From contig CALWZL010000015.1 of assembly GCA_944385995.1 (NCBI GenBank), forward strand, positions 1-40,361: a DNA stretch of 40,361 nucleotides, written 5' to 3'. Both the position numbers and the translations under genes were made by a program. The notes under the pieces were generated by a model that saw only the letters and a program-made list of their open reading frames with translations, did no database searches and was not told the DNA's origin. The stretch comes from an uncultured Faecalibacterium sp. (GTDB taxonomy: Bacteria; Bacillota; Clostridia; Oscillospirales; Ruminococcaceae). Positions 27,928 to 32,045 of this stretch are shown here, in pieces; the stretch's first letter is position 1; each line of letters opens with the position of its first letter.

Positions 27928-29184
27928 TTACTGGAAAGCGCCGGTCACCCGGTCGATGTAACCGCCGGTGCCCGACGTGCCGCGGGCGGCCCGGATGCGG
28001 AAATTGAAAGCCGGGTCTTTGGCGGCGGAGGCGTTGGAAAATGCGATGTTTTGGCCTTCCCGGACCTCGGCGGTGGCGTCCTGCCAGACCGGCTGGTCGT
28101 CCAGGGCGTTGTTGGTGACTTCCACCGTGAAGTCGGCGTCGGCGGGAATGACGCCGCCCACCGTGAGGGTGGCCACCGTAATGGGATCGGAGGCCACCAG
28201 GGGCTGGGTGAGGGTCAGGCTGGCCGAGGTGACGGCCTTGGTGAAGGTCATGGAGAGGCTGGAAGAAGCAAAGCCGTCGTTGGCGGTCACCTGGAGGGTG
28301 TGGTCCCCGTTGGCCAGCTGGAGAAAGGCGGGGGCGTCGTTCAGCGCTGCAAAATGCTGTGCGGCGCCCGAGGCCGCCGTCAGGGTGCGGGTGACCTGGT
28401 CGTCCAGCTGTTCGGTGAGAGAAAGGAGGCTGCCCTCGGGATCGGTGGCGGTGTATTCCAGCAGGAACGGGGTGTTGCGGATGCCCAGGCTGGCGCCGTT
28501 GGTGCCGCTGGGACTGGTGATGCTGGGTGCGGTGTTGGGCCGGAGATTGCCGCCGTCGTCCACCAGCATGGTGGAAGGCAGAATCAGAGCGGGCCGGACG
28601 CCGTTGGTGACATCGGAATCCCGATAGGTACAGTCGCCGTTGGTGCTCACCACCACCCAGACGCTGTTTGCTGCCTGGGTGTAGGGGGAGCGGGTCCAGT
28701 ACCAGGTGGGAGAGCCGTTCAGAGAGGCAATGCGGCGGTCGTCGGCGGTCTCGAAGTCCTGGAAGTAAGCCAGACAGGCGCCGTCGGCCGGCATGCCGGG
28801 CTTGTCCGCCGCGGTCCAGCCCATCTCATAGCCGGAAGTGAGGAACAGACGGGTTTCCAGGCCCTGCCTGCCGCTGTGGACGGTGCTGCCCTCCGCGTAG
28901 GGAATGCGGACGGTTTTGATGAGGGGCTGAATATCGCTGTCGATGAGGGGCAGAAAGGTTTCGTTCAGCCAGGTGTGGATGCTGGAAGCGGCGTACTGGC
29001 TGGTTCCGCCCCACAGAAGTTTGGAGTGGATGTTTTTCATCATCAGCCAGGTGCCCTCACAGCTGGCGTCATAGAGGCCGGAGTCGGGGTTGCCGTGGTG
29101 GAGGATGATGAACTCCTGTGCAGTGCCGTTGACGTTCAAAGAGACGGTGCTGCCCACAGGCAGGGCAGAAAGAATGGTTGCCAT
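27928..29184 (-). CDS. DUF6273-domain tail-like protein with Ig-like C-terminus
   Basis: The 418-residue protein has no signal peptide. Residues about 5-212 fit a DUF6273 domain: LMMKNIHSKLLWGG (47-60), SSIHTWLNETFLP (67-79), WYWTRSPY (161-168) and GVRPALILP (195-203). This fold is common in phage tail-tip or receptor-binding proteins and resembles the C-type-lectin-like fold. Residues about 217-418 are Thr/Ser/Ala-rich with two beta-sandwich-like repeats (ITSPSG, YTATDPEGS, LTLTQPLVASDPITVATL). AAAGGGGG precedes the ATG. It lies 17 bases downstream of the tail-fibre-like gene in one transcript. Role in adhesion or receptor binding is inferred. Confidence 0.7.
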   Translation of the reverse strand: MATILSALPVGSTVSLNVNGTAQEFIILHHGNPDSGLYDASCEGTWLMMKNIHSKLLWGGTSQYAASSIHTWLNETFLPLIDSDIQPLIKTVRIPYAEGSTVHSGRQGLETRLFLTSGYEMGWTAADKPGMPADGACLAYFQDFETADDRRIASLNGSPTWYWTRSPYTQAANSVWVVVSTNGDCTYRDSDVTNGVRPALILPSTMLVDDGGNLRPNTAPSITSPSGTNGASLGIRNTPFLLEYTATDPEGSLLSLTEQLDDQVTRTLTAASGAAQHFAALNDAPAFLQLANGDHTLQVTANDGFASSSLSMTFTKAVTSASLTLTQPLVASDPITVATLTVGGVIPADADFTVEVTNNALDDQPVWQDATAEVREGQNIAFSNASAAKDPAFNFRIRAARGTSGTGGYIDRVTGAFQ

Positions 29185-29201
29185 GGCGCAGAATCCCCCT
29201 T

Positions 29202-30395
29202 TCAGAATTCGATGCGGGCCGCCTCAGCATTCCAGATGCCGGTGACGGTCAGGTTGTCCAGGGCGGCCAGATCCGCTTGAAAAGGATGTGCGGTCACCGA
29301 GGTGTCGTATTTGTGTTCCAAAATCTCCACCCGCTGGGCCAGAGCCTCCAGGGCCGAGGCCTGGGCCGCGTCCAGGGTGGCGCGGGCGTTCTGGCGGTCC
29401 TGATCGGTCCAGGCGGCGCTCTCCCACAGGGTGGTCAGGGCCAGCTTGACGGCCAGGGGCACCAGGGCGGGAGTCAGAGGGGACCAGCCCGACTGCATCG
29501 AAAACAGCTGATCGGTGGAGGCGGGCGCCAGCCGGAGTTCCCCGTCCACGGTGAGGGCCAGGCCGTAGCCGGTGGCCAGTTTGACCGGGCCGGCCTGGTG
29601 GGCGGTGGGCAGGTCGGTGCGGCGGACAAAGGTGGTCAGGTCGGATTCCGGCACCGTCTCGGTGGTGACGGCGCCCGTCTCACTGTCCACCGACTGGACG
29701 CGGACCAGGCACCCCGCCGCCGGTGCGTCCGGCAGGGGCAGGGCGCCCACATCCTGGGCATCCAGCTGGACCCGGCCGCCCATGCTGTTGACGCTGATGA
29801 CCGGGCCTTCGGTGGGGGCGACGGCTTCGGCCCGCTGGGCGGCCGCTTCCGCCCGCTGGGCGCTGGCCTGGGCGGCGTCAGCCTGTGCGCCGGCGGACGA
29901 CACCGAGGCCGCCGCCTCCCCTGCCGCGGCGCCGGCTTCCTGGGCGCTCTGGGCCGCGGCGTCCGAAAAGTGTTCGGCATCCACGGCAGAGGCCAGGACC
30001 TGGGCGACAAACTGTTCGTACAGGGAGGAAGAAGGCGGCTGGGCGGTGCCGTCCACCGGGAGGATCTCGCAGGTGTCATAGCTGCCGGGCTGGGTGTAGG
30101 CGGTGTAGCCGCCGCCGTCGGTGGCGGTCAGCATCCACCGGCCCGACGGCGCGGCGGTCAGACGGCGGTCCACCGCAATCCGGCCTTCCGGGTCCAGCAG
30201 CAGGGGCTCCGGCAAGGTGCCGTCCGCCTGTTCGATGTGGAGAGAAACGCTTTTGCCGGCCCATTCGGCGGGCAGGGTGAAGGCCAGGGTGTCGACGCCC
30301 TGGGCGTGCTGGCTGCCCAGATGAAGCTGGGCCGGGTGTGGGATGAAATCGGTACAGCCCGAGAGCTGCCGGGCCGTGATCTCAATGTGCATCAT
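29202..30395 (-). CDS. phage tail-fibre/baseplate-like protein with Ala-rich coil
   Basis: The protein is 397 residues from the ATG at 30395 (a second ATG follows at once at 30392), with AGGAAGGA upstream. An N-terminal beta domain (1-130) has a baseplate-upper-protein look, with LPAEWAGKSVSLHIEQADG and WMLTATDGGGYTAY. Residues about 140-200 are an alanine- and glutamine-rich coil (AAAQSAQEAGAAAGEAAAS, QRAEAAAQRAEA). A beta-rich region follows, and a short coiled stretch (LDAAQASALEALAQRVEILE) comes before the C-terminal tip. No capsid, tail or lysis gene is nearby. It could be a prophage remnant or a domesticated tail fibre. Confidence 0.6.
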   Translation of the reverse strand: MMHIEITARQLSGCTDFIPHPAQLHLGSQHAQGVDTLAFTLPAEWAGKSVSLHIEQADGTLPEPLLLDPEGRIAVDRRLTAAPSGRWMLTATDGGGYTAYTQPGSYDTCEILPVDGTAQPPSSSLYEQFVAQVLASAVDAEHFSDAAAQSAQEAGAAAGEAAASVSSAGAQADAAQASAQRAEAAAQRAEAVAPTEGPVISVNSMGGRVQLDAQDVGALPLPDAPAAGCLVRVQSVDSETGAVTTETVPESDLTTFVRRTDLPTAHQAGPVKLATGYGLALTVDGELRLAPASTDQLFSMQSGWSPLTPALVPLAVKLALTTLWESAAWTDQDRQNARATLDAAQASALEALAQRVEILEHKYDTSVTAHPFQADLAALDNLTVTGIWNAEAARIEF

Positions 30396-30790
30396 GTTGG
30401 GTGTAATCCTTCCTTTCCCGGGGCGCGCCGGGCGCCCCGCTTGGTGGGTGTTTCCGAAATGAGCCGGCCGGTGTTTCGGAGGGCGGAAAAGGGGCCGGCC
30501 CCTGCCGGGCTGACCCCATTGTAATGGGCCTGACCGGGGCGGGACAGGGTGTCCTTTTGGCGGACAAAAGCTGCGGGAAAAAGTGAAATTTTGTCCCTGC
30601 GCCGGGCCCCGAAGTGGGAAAAATTGCATGCAAACGGAAAAATAAATGTTAAATTTCTGTTACAGTATTGCGGGGGCATTTCGATCGAAAATCGGAGGAT
30701 GGAGACGGAAAAACCAAAGTTGTGAGAAAAAGATTGTACAACTTGCACGAAAAAGAACGACAAAAATATAACAAATCCACATCCAGCCAT
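30396..30790. other. non-coding stretch upstream of the tail-like genes
   Basis: The first 150 bases are GC-rich with a CCCATTGTAATGGG hairpin near 30518-30531; the rest turns AT-rich from about 30590. No gene with a ribosome site is seen on either strand. A minus-strand promoter for the tail-like genes must lie here, but no good -35/-10 pair was found. Confidence 0.5.
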
Positions 30791-30835: not shown

Positions 30836-30965
30836 TGCGTCCAACGCACGATGCAGCGAATAAAACAGACCGACCAAGAAGTTAAGCGCCGTCCTTTTGG
30901 AGGCGGCGCCCGGCGGCGGACCGGGAGATCAAACCGGCCAACGGCGGGCGGAGGAAGCAGCCCGC
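30836..30965 (+). promoter_or_regulatory. structured 5' leader of the G5/3D gene
   Basis: Hairpins TGCGT-cca-ACGCA (30836-30848), GCGCCG...CGGCGC (30886-30909), CCCGG...CCGGG (30909-30925) and GCGGGC...GCCCGC (30944-30965) follow the promoter. The leader is about 215 bases to the chosen start. Some cell-wall hydrolase genes are under a c-di-AMP riboswitch, but its conserved core is not visible here, so the leader is unassigned. Confidence 0.5.
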
Positions 30966-31040
30966 AAACAAAGCCAAACTGTAAAAAGAGAGGAGTTGTT
31001 TCGTATCACTTCCGAATGTAAGCATGATGAAAAGAGACGA

Positions 31041-32045
31041 ATGGCTCGCCAGCGCCTGTTTGCGATGGGCATCCTGAGCCTGGGTCTTGCATTGACTCTG
31101 ATCCTGACCACCGTCAGCATCCGCGTCACCTACGTAACCGATTCCAATGGGGCCAGCCAGCTCCTGCTGACCAGCGAGAGCGACCCCACCCGTCTGATGA
31201 ACCTTTCCGGCATTGAAGCCGCGGAGGGCGACCGCGTCTACTATACGGCTTTTGGGGGCAGCCTGGCCACCCTGAACATCGAGCGGGCCTTTACCGTCAA
31301 CATTGAGGCCGACAGCCAGGAAATCCCGGTCAAGATGGTCTATGGCACCGTGGCCGAAGCCCTGGAAAAGGCCGGCATCACCCTGGGTCCCGACGACTAC
31401 ACCGAGCCCGCCCTGGATTCCCTGGTGAGCATTGGAAGCAAGATTGAAGTTCACCGGGTCCGCTATGAGGAGACGGTGGAGTATCAGACCATCCCCTATG
31501 AGACGGAGTATGTCTATACCAGTCTGTACTTCCGTGACACCGACCGTGTCACCACCCTCCAGGCCGGCTCCAATGGCCAGTGCGCCATTACCACCCGTCA
31601 CCGCTGGGTGGATGGCGAGCTGGAGAACAGCATCGTCACCGACGTGACCACCACCGTGGAGCCCCAGGACGCCCTGATTAAGGCCTACGGCGCCGGCGCC
31701 CCGGTCTCTCCCCTGACCGGCCCCGACGGCACCACCAACCCGCCTTCCAGCTACAGCAAGGTGCTGACCGGCAAGGCCACCGGCTATTATTCCCGCACCG
31801 GCAGCGGTGCTTCGGGCCTGGGCCTGGGCTATGGCACCGTGGCGGTTGACCCGGATGTGATCCCCTACGGGACCCTGCTGTATATTACTTCCACCGACGG
31901 CAAGTTTGTCTACGGTTATGCAGTGGCCACCGATACCGGCATTGCTCTGCAGGACGGCCATATTCTGGTGGACCTGTTCTATGAGACCTACGCCGAATCG
32001 GTCATCAACGGCGCCATCAATGTCAACGTCTATGTGGTTGGCTGA
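31041..32045 (+). CDS. cell-wall-associated G5 and 3D-domain protein
   Basis: The protein is 334 residues from ATG 31041; an in-frame TTG at 30996 just after GAGAGGAG is possible but too close to that site. A single N-terminal membrane segment (about 8-27) anchors or exports it. A DUF348-like domain (84-120) and a G5 domain (139-190, with YEETVEYQTIPYETEYVYT) bind cell-wall sugar. The C-terminal 3D domain (about 242-334) has the three aspartates Asp270, Asp298 and Asp311 in VAVDPD, ATDTG and VDLFY, a lytic-transglycosylase-like site. It likely trims peptidoglycan, as YabE/RpfB-type proteins do. Confidence 0.87.
   Translation: MARQRLFAMGILSLGLALTLILTTVSIRVTYVTDSNGASQLLLTSESDPTRLMNLSGIEAAEGDRVYYTAFGGSLATLNIERAFTVNIEADSQEIPVKMVYGTVAEALEKAGITLGPDDYTEPALDSLVSIGSKIEVHRVRYEETVEYQTIPYETEYVYTSLYFRDTDRVTTLQAGSNGQCAITTRHRWVDGELENSIVTDVTTTVEPQDALIKAYGAGAPVSPLTGPDGTTNPPSSYSKVLTGKATGYYSRTGSGASGLGLGYGTVAVDPDVIPYGTLLYITSTDGKFVYGYAVATDTGIALQDGHILVDLFYETYAESVINGAINVNVYVVG

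Follow-up and report, generated by a model that had tools for sequence, protein, structure and literature searches.

A fibre and tentaclin gene pair as the probable receptor-binding locus of a dispersed gene transfer agent in Faecalibacterium

The window is a stretch of 40,361 nucleotides from an uncultured Faecalibacterium sp. and represents contig C15 of a 2.25-Mb MAG (114 contigs, 88% complete). Two adjacent genes, both on the minus strand, encode a fibre-like protein and a DUF6273/Ig-like protein. They are located between a WYL regulator gene and a divergent 3D/G5-glgB-glgC-glgD block (Table 1). Pfam assigned families to 16 of the 20 other window ORFs that we judged to be genes and none to the remaining four. 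The families comprise arginine, aromatic and glycogen metabolism, the WYL regulator, the 3D/G5 protein and others, and none of them is of phage type. The scan left out many shorter or antisense ORFs and the genes that we take to be aroC/E/F/A, tyrA, glgC and glgD. Within these 20 ORFs, the result agrees with the sequence-only reading of this DNA, which had described a two-gene tail-like unit among housekeeping genes. The only RNA element in the window at gathering thresholds was one tRNA, and an interpretation involving an RNA element was dropped on this basis.

Table 1. Features of the gene pair, its upstream region and its neighbour in the window
Feature	Positions	Strand	Remarks
Fibre-like gene	29202..30395	minus	397 aa, stop codon within span; syntenic in 23/31 genus genomes
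DUF6273/Ig-like gene	27928..29184	minus	418 aa, of tentaclin type; presumably the tip that binds the receptor
Conserved N-terminal fibre domain, residues 1–118	30042..30395	minus	common to both clades; particle attachment presumed
C-terminal fibre end, residues 356–397	29205..29330	minus	similar to Toutatis gp78; presumed adaptor for the DUF6273 protein
DUF6273 domain match, residues 60–204	28573..29007	minus	falls in the region of the pair that varies most
Ig-like C-terminal part, residues 209–418	27931..28560	minus	more conserved; docking to the fibre presumed
3D/G5 gene	30897..32045	plus	outside the module; conserved neighbour marking the place
14-bp promoter element AAAAGGACACCCTG	30545..30558	minus	locus I of this genome has it too
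Presumed −10 box TACAAT	30518..30523	minus	21 nt after the 14-bp element

In the 418-aa protein, Pfam recognized an N-terminal DUF6273 domain (E = 5.5e-26), and no Pfam family was found for the fibre. PHROGs matched residues 216–418 of the former to "Hoc-like head decoration" (7.4e-91) and the C-terminus of the fibre to a family of unknown function (7.3e-13), together with weak tail-fibre matches. The structure model of the fibre has a mean pLDDT of 46, which is too weak to name a fold; its matches among viral structures included tail-fibre proteins among many unnamed ones. The model of the DUF6273 protein has a mean pLDDT of 68, with residues 124–195 mostly below 50, and gave PDB matches of the Ig/FN3 type with low TM scores. 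The Ig-like part of this protein is indicated by strands in the model, by the PHROG match and by full-length phage homologues. Sequence profiles detected no convincing relative of solved structure.

Tentaclins are described as having an N-terminal DUF6273 domain followed by Ig-like domains, of which the C-terminal one is thought to anchor the protein to the virion (PMC10743442). The 418-aa protein has the same order of domains and can be aligned with FP_Brigit's Hoc-like protein (46% over 99%, in two pieces), for which that article draws a comparison with tentaclins. However, it differs from the tentaclins described there in not belonging to a phage and in that no DGR or template repeat was found beside it or, by BLASTN, in its own genome; moreover, its model does not confirm the C-type lectin fold. 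In another account, DUF6273 was placed in DGR target proteins of Faecalibacterium phages (PMC11792537). The best phage matches of the 418-aa protein were the gene after the reverse transcriptase in Toutatis and Lelie, with identity over the full length, and an unannotated contig (47–48%). The final 42 residues of the fibre are similar to gp78, which lies just upstream of the Toutatis DGR. In contrast to the window, these phages have a DGR and, according to the Toutatis annotation, P2-like tail genes, and the remainder of the fibre has no counterpart in them. Judging from these alignments, the simplest account would be that the tip and the adaptor end of the fibre came from a Toutatis-like phage without the retroelement. 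A target gene that is still diversified in trans by a DGR elsewhere in the genome would also suit the position of the nearest phage homologue, which comes immediately after the genes for Avd and the reverse transcriptase of a DGR. However, a BLASTN search of the pair against its own genome returned the pair and a single 33-bp match located in the fibre gene. With no template-like copy in this search of an 88% complete MAG, diversification in trans was rejected as extremely improbable. No reverse transcriptase was present among the window ORFs scanned with Pfam.

The fibre was searched for in 61 genomes. Matches were obtained in 27, all of which are among the 31 genomes of the genus, and in none of the 30 genomes of other genera. 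The sequence-only reading had pointed to relatives as the place to look for the pair, and the position is conserved: the fibre gene adjoins the 3D gene in 23 of the 31 genus genomes (22 mapped loci and the window), and the full pair is found there in 10 (own, G001, G002, G004, G008, G013, G014, G015, G017 and G022; G numbers denote genomes). Therefore, the association is not due to chance. On the other side of the pair, the aro operon is present in five of these 10 genomes; in the other five, the contig shows 1 to 3.7 kb past the pair, without the aro operon. The 13 other genomes have the same N-terminal fibre domain (50–61% identity), and the C-terminus and the downstream genes differ (in G024, the contig ends). 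The remaining eight genus genomes have no fibre at this place. Three of them (G007, G016 and G025) have a holin there, accompanied by M15 in G007 and by a GH25-like frame, identified by reading, in G025. Weak fibre-domain matches lie away from the place in G009, G011 and G018, and the genome search found no fibre match in G019 and G027. Nine loci come from named genomes, of which eight are labelled Faecalibacterium (three being chicken isolates or species) and one "uncultured bacterium". Cultured strains that carry the pair include Faecalibacterium sp. An122 and An121 (loci L103 and L107). Locus L111 was considered as a case of tip exchange and rejected; it runs into a sequence read as phosphomannomutase and looks like a chimeric contig, and it was left out of all counts.

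The pair has no internal stop codon or broken frame in any of the 10 pair-bearing genomes, so that the decay in relatives named beforehand as an argument against the sequence-only reading was not seen in them. Among the genomes of the other clade, G021 has one TGA within its fibre match, and the match in G024 is cut by the contig end. The median dN/dS over the 45 comparisons among the 10 genomes was 0.39 for the fibre and 0.29 for its residues 1–118. For the DUF6273 protein it was 0.62, with 0.71 in the head and 0.51 in the Ig part; the highest single value (1.02) occurred in the head. The pair is under purifying selection, and a conserved base with a variable tip is the pattern that a receptor-binding device would show.

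A gene transfer agent of this genus, FpGTA, has been described by Borodovich et al. (2026, PMC12946183). According to the main account, operon I, with genes for TerS, TerL, portal, scaffold and capsid, was present in all 12 Faecalibacterium genomes examined, and FpGTA proteins were identified by proteomics of DNA-filled particles of ~40 nm. Operon II, which encodes a baseplate protein, a tail fibre, a receptor-binding protein, a holin and an endolysin, was found in five of the 12 (PMC12946183). The genome of the window has operon I at G000:C6, with the same kind of gene list, and its fibre and receptor-binding genes lie outside this operon. Ten ORFs were recognized in operon I, including TerL, a P22-type portal and the major capsid protein; these three were identified by Pfam and PHROGs, and TerS by position and similarity to relatives only. 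All ten proteins are present in each of the nine further genomes mapped. A portal of the SPP1 type (PF05133) was also tried for operon I and discarded as the wrong family; it occurs in five of the 31 genomes. Over 20 genomes, the between-genome distances for TerL, the fibre N-terminus and the 3D gene agree (r 0.88–0.92, Mantel p 0.0005); the correlation of TerL with the fibre is only 0.50 within the eight genomes of the window's clade.

The sequence-only reading had offered a surface or contractile-system accessory as one possible role and had suggested a search for contractile genes elsewhere in the genome. A spare tail tip for a contractile particle (a myophage, a tailocin or an extracellular injection system) encoded elsewhere would be compatible with the nearest phage homologue of the tip, since the phage that encodes it has tail genes of the P2-like kind and baseplate genes of the J type. 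Baseplate_J genes do occur in 12 of the 23 genus genomes examined, including pairs of large proteins in G002, G008 and G022 that presumably resemble those of injection systems. However, Baseplate_J is absent from the other 11, and seven of these (own, G003, G004, G006, G012, G017 and G020) carry the fibre locus. In addition, the terminase family of the short-tailed FpGTA type is present in all 31 genus genomes. The role as a contractile accessory was thus not sustained, and we regard a tip for such a particle as very unlikely.

Prophages related to FpGTA connect the fibre with the head genes. In G028 (C11, 605–630 kb), one run contains FpGTA-like head genes, a gene for a 3375-aa protein, a toxin-antitoxin-like pair, the fibre, a DUF6273 protein, an M15 endolysin and a holin. 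Its TerL and portal are 77% and 76% identical to those of FpGTA I, and the fibre and DUF6273 genes are adjacent in the same order as in the window. However, this prophage is one continuous element in which the 3375-aa protein separates the head genes from the fibre, its DUF6273 protein has only 256 residues, and it has no perfect promoter match. FpGTA-like head genes and a fibre also share one prophage in G007, and G023 has a decayed remnant with a broken terminase match, a portal and a fibre. Therefore, this type of fibre belongs to the phage lineage that gave rise to FpGTA. Among viral contigs scanned with the fibre alignment, no relative was found. The stored flanks of 65 viral contigs with FpGTA-like capsid genes gave no fibre or tentaclin profile match (positive controls included), a result of little weight, since in the prophages the head genes and the fibre lie on either side of a giant gene. 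Since such prophages exist, some of them in decay, and since the fibre is missing from the place in eight of the 31 genomes, the pair might be a prophage remnant without present function, left beside the 3D gene as the final two genes of a phage that integrated long ago. This is quite improbable in view of the intact frames of all 10 pairs, the fibre dN/dS well below 1, the same place across the genus and the promoter common to FpGTA I.

The place of the fibre in other members of the genus was compared with the published operon II. In G003, G023 and G026, it holds the fibre, a protein of ~195 residues, a third protein, a GDSL lipase, an M15 endolysin and an SPP1-type holin. The third protein of G026 has a Big_2 domain (Pfam on six G026 proteins). 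The gene run spans 4.8–4.9 kb, as against 4,907 bp published for operon II of APC918/95b (PMC12946183). From this agreement in gene content and length, the fibre place of this other clade is likely to be the published operon II. The two operons are ~125 kb apart in that strain (PMC12946183), whereas the distance between TerL and the fibre locus ranged from ~295 kb to 1.02 Mb in seven closed genomes (shorter way round), and no fixed distance between the loci was seen among them.

The window's clade also differs from the published arrangement in that operon II consists of the fibre and the tentaclin only, with no lysis genes beside the pair. In the 10 pair-bearing genomes, the holin is found at a third locus together with an XhlA-like frame. 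The endolysin of this locus is of the GH25 type in four genomes (own, G001, G014 and G015) and of the M15 type in six. Within the stretch examined, the neighbours include a LysR-like gene in all 10 genomes and a MATE-like gene in nine. The names MATE, LysR and XhlA, as well as GyrB and antirepressor below, come from reading of the sequences. In the window's own genome, the GH25 protein and the holin of the cassette were confirmed by Pfam.

This cassette bears on the question of how proteins without export signals would leave the cell. Neither protein of the pair has an LPxTG motif, and the highest 19-residue hydropathy means are 1.3 and 1.4; therefore, there is no sign of a signal or membrane segment, as judged from motif and hydropathy. 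The sequence-only reading had left the route of exit unclear. Lysis by a holin and an endolysin is the ordinary candidate answer, and the window's own genome has the genes for it, at another locus. The two proteins could also work without any particle, either as an adhesin that is secreted or free on the surface or as a decoy blocking phage receptors, and tentaclin-like proteins are stated to occur in bacterial genomes too (PMC10743442). However, the lack of a sortase motif or hydrophobic segment, on the same motif and hydropathy basis, and the promoter shared with the capsid operon make such a role highly improbable.

A common layout precedes TerS and the fibre gene: a 14-bp element (AAAAGGACACACTG and variants), 21 nt and TAnnnT. 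The 21-nt spacing was found before TerS in all 21 genomes examined and before the fibre in 19 of 23; it is 22 nt in the other four (G003, G006, G023 and G026). If TAnnnT is a −10 box, the 14-bp element would have its centre at about −40.5, where class II activators usually bind. A score matrix was constructed from 11 distinct TerS sites (21 genomes), which were picked by a regular expression and by hand. With this locus-I-only matrix, 18 of the 23 fibre upstream regions, all outside the training set, scored at least 11 bits, compared with 2.25% of 4000 random windows; this control is conservative because the windows come from loci containing the motif. Lower scores were obtained for the group G003, G006 and G023 (7.2), for G026 (8.5) and for G021 (9.6). 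The matrix and pattern scans were not blind, because the motif was first spotted by eye in the initial sequences. At the lysis cassette, the best sites reached at least 15 bits in five of 10 genomes (G008, G013, G014, G017 and G022), 11.4–12.0 bits in own, G002 and G004, and less than 9 in G001 and G015; the weak scores mean little because up to 1,700 bases were scanned, compared with 220 in the control.

In the window's own genome, a first pattern had only two perfect matches, at TerS and the fibre, and six matches with up to two mismatches, compared with one for the reversed control. A looser pattern without mismatches matched three sites, before TerS, the fibre and a DUF6291 gene. In the 31 genomes, this looser pattern gave 40 perfect matches, compared with two for the reversed control, and 11 genomes had none. 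The 40 sites precede TerS (18), the fibre (10), the lysis cassette (2), a DUF6291 gene (3), an AAA_25 ATPase gene (5; in the case of G026, the assignment follows from near identity to the G023 gene), gyrB (1) and a gene cut by a contig end (1). A similar site precedes gyrB in G029, and the gyrB-like frame of the window's own genome has a two-mismatch site. Therefore, use of the element may not be confined to the agent.

We conclude that the pair most probably forms locus II of FpGTA and serves as its receptor-binding module. In this view, FpGTA is a domesticated phage, short-tailed and P22-like, with its genes split over the chromosome. The module is very probably the tip with which a domesticated, DNA-delivering particle recognizes cells; the other parts of the particle are encoded elsewhere in the chromosome, behind an on-switch of the same type. 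The domesticated receptor-binding pair of the sequence-only reading has good support from the synteny, the intact frames and a dedicated promoter; the surface or contractile accessory that it had named beside it lacks such support. What the computation shows is the synteny, the unbroken frames, the purifying selection, the joint occurrence with FpGTA I, the shared promoter and the gene order of FpGTA-related prophages; the activator, the protein-protein contacts, the presence in particles, the ligand and the DNA transfer are inferred. On the best reading, the FpGTA of the window's clade is split over three loci and tipped by a tentaclin, and the pair would be present in the particles.

A putative activator would bind the 14-bp element before locus I (TerS, TerL, portal, capsid and others) and before the pair, and in several relatives it may also bind the element before the lysis cassette. 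The heads would then fill with host DNA. The fibre would join the head or a tail stub via its conserved N-terminal domain, and the tentaclin would dock on the fibre via its Ig-like part, such that the DUF6273 head could be presented to a surface ligand of the recipient cells. The holin and the endolysin would release the particles, and no signal peptide would therefore be needed.

RcGTA of Rhodobacter capsulatus resembles this arrangement in being encoded at several loci (five), with a tail fibre gene apparently outside the main cluster, but it has another phage ancestry and belongs to another bacterial class, as far as described in PMC10883770.

A wider reading can be put forward tentatively, and we consider it possible rather than probable. 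FpGTA may be more than two operons, namely a regulon that extends over the genus, is controlled by the host and has an activator site of its own. One promoter would serve the loci for the head, for receptor binding and for lysis; several species would use it for isolated genes of phage type as well (DUF6291, an AAA_25 helicase-like ATPase and perhaps an antirepressor-like gene). The receptor-binding locus would keep the attachment domain and swap the tip by clade, with a knob or GDSL lipase in one and the tentaclin in the window's clade; therefore, each lineage would aim its DNA at its own kin. Such kin-aimed delivery may be likened to a mating-type system.

The present account gives an explanation for the orphan pair of phage-tail genes in a gut genus that is abundant. 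To our knowledge, only a few agents of this kind have been described outside the Alphaproteobacteria, and FpGTA is one of them. Operons I and II were known from its main account (PMC12946183; supplements not covered), in which the shared promoter, the third locus and the tentaclin tip are not reported. For the strains without a detected operon II, its authors considered that the genes had been lost or that a more divergent set was present (PMC12946183), and the pair offers such a divergent second locus for these seven of the 12 strains. The shared promoter provides a handle on the regulator. With a tip that is specific to the clade, it also becomes possible to test which cells receive the DNA.

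The promoter layout of the Faecalibacterium gene transfer agent (FpGTA), a 14-bp element followed after 21 nt by a presumed -10 box, was found before the DUF6291 gene in three genomes (G000, which is the window's own, G014 and G001), and a related sequence accompanies this gene in G015. In G013, G020 and others, the DUF6291 gene lacks the layout. The end of the encoded protein weakly resembles DnaB_2. Other genes behind the promoter pattern are listed in the table; the first residues of the gene interrupted by a contig end are similar to phage antirepressors. In locus L111, the promoter and the fibre N-terminus are continued by an unrelated metabolic gene, and this contig is probably a chimera of metagenome assembly.

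Features associated with the FpGTA promoter or with FpGTA-like prophages
Feature	Locus	Genome or contig	Arrangement
DUF6291 gene	L280	G000:C92:39-890	FpGTA promoter layout before gene
DUF6291 gene		G014:C40	FpGTA promoter layout before gene
DUF6291 gene		G001:C46	FpGTA promoter layout before gene
AAA_25 (RepA/DnaB-like) ATPase genes	L342, L344, L345, L346, L347	G017, G008, G023, G014, G026	FpGTA promoter layout
Gene interrupted by contig end	L343	G008:C173	FpGTA promoter pattern upstream
gyrB	L348	G029:C1	FpGTA promoter pattern upstream
FpGTA-like prophage	L205 + L089	G028:C11	3375-aa giant protein separates head genes from fibre
FpGTA-like prophage	L086 + L191	G007:C8	3620-aa giant protein separates head genes from fibre

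In the FpGTA-like prophages, a small toxin-antitoxin-like pair immediately precedes the fibre. Large paired Baseplate_J proteins (open frames of about 970 and 700 aa) occur in G002:C94, G008:C60 and G022:C5, an arrangement that we regard as reminiscent of extracellular contractile injection systems. A phage remnant in G023 adjoins frames rich in ISIHALREEGD/FYPRPPRGGR peptide repeats (L097, about 10.9-13.7 kb; G023:C1:1540-1543 kb), which we take to be a CRISPR array in translation.

IMG/VR, a viral collection, contains contigs (loci L349-L357) whose capsid genes are 84-95% identical to those of the FpGTA head operon (FpGTA I); therefore, FpGTA operons are probably listed as viruses in viral catalogues.
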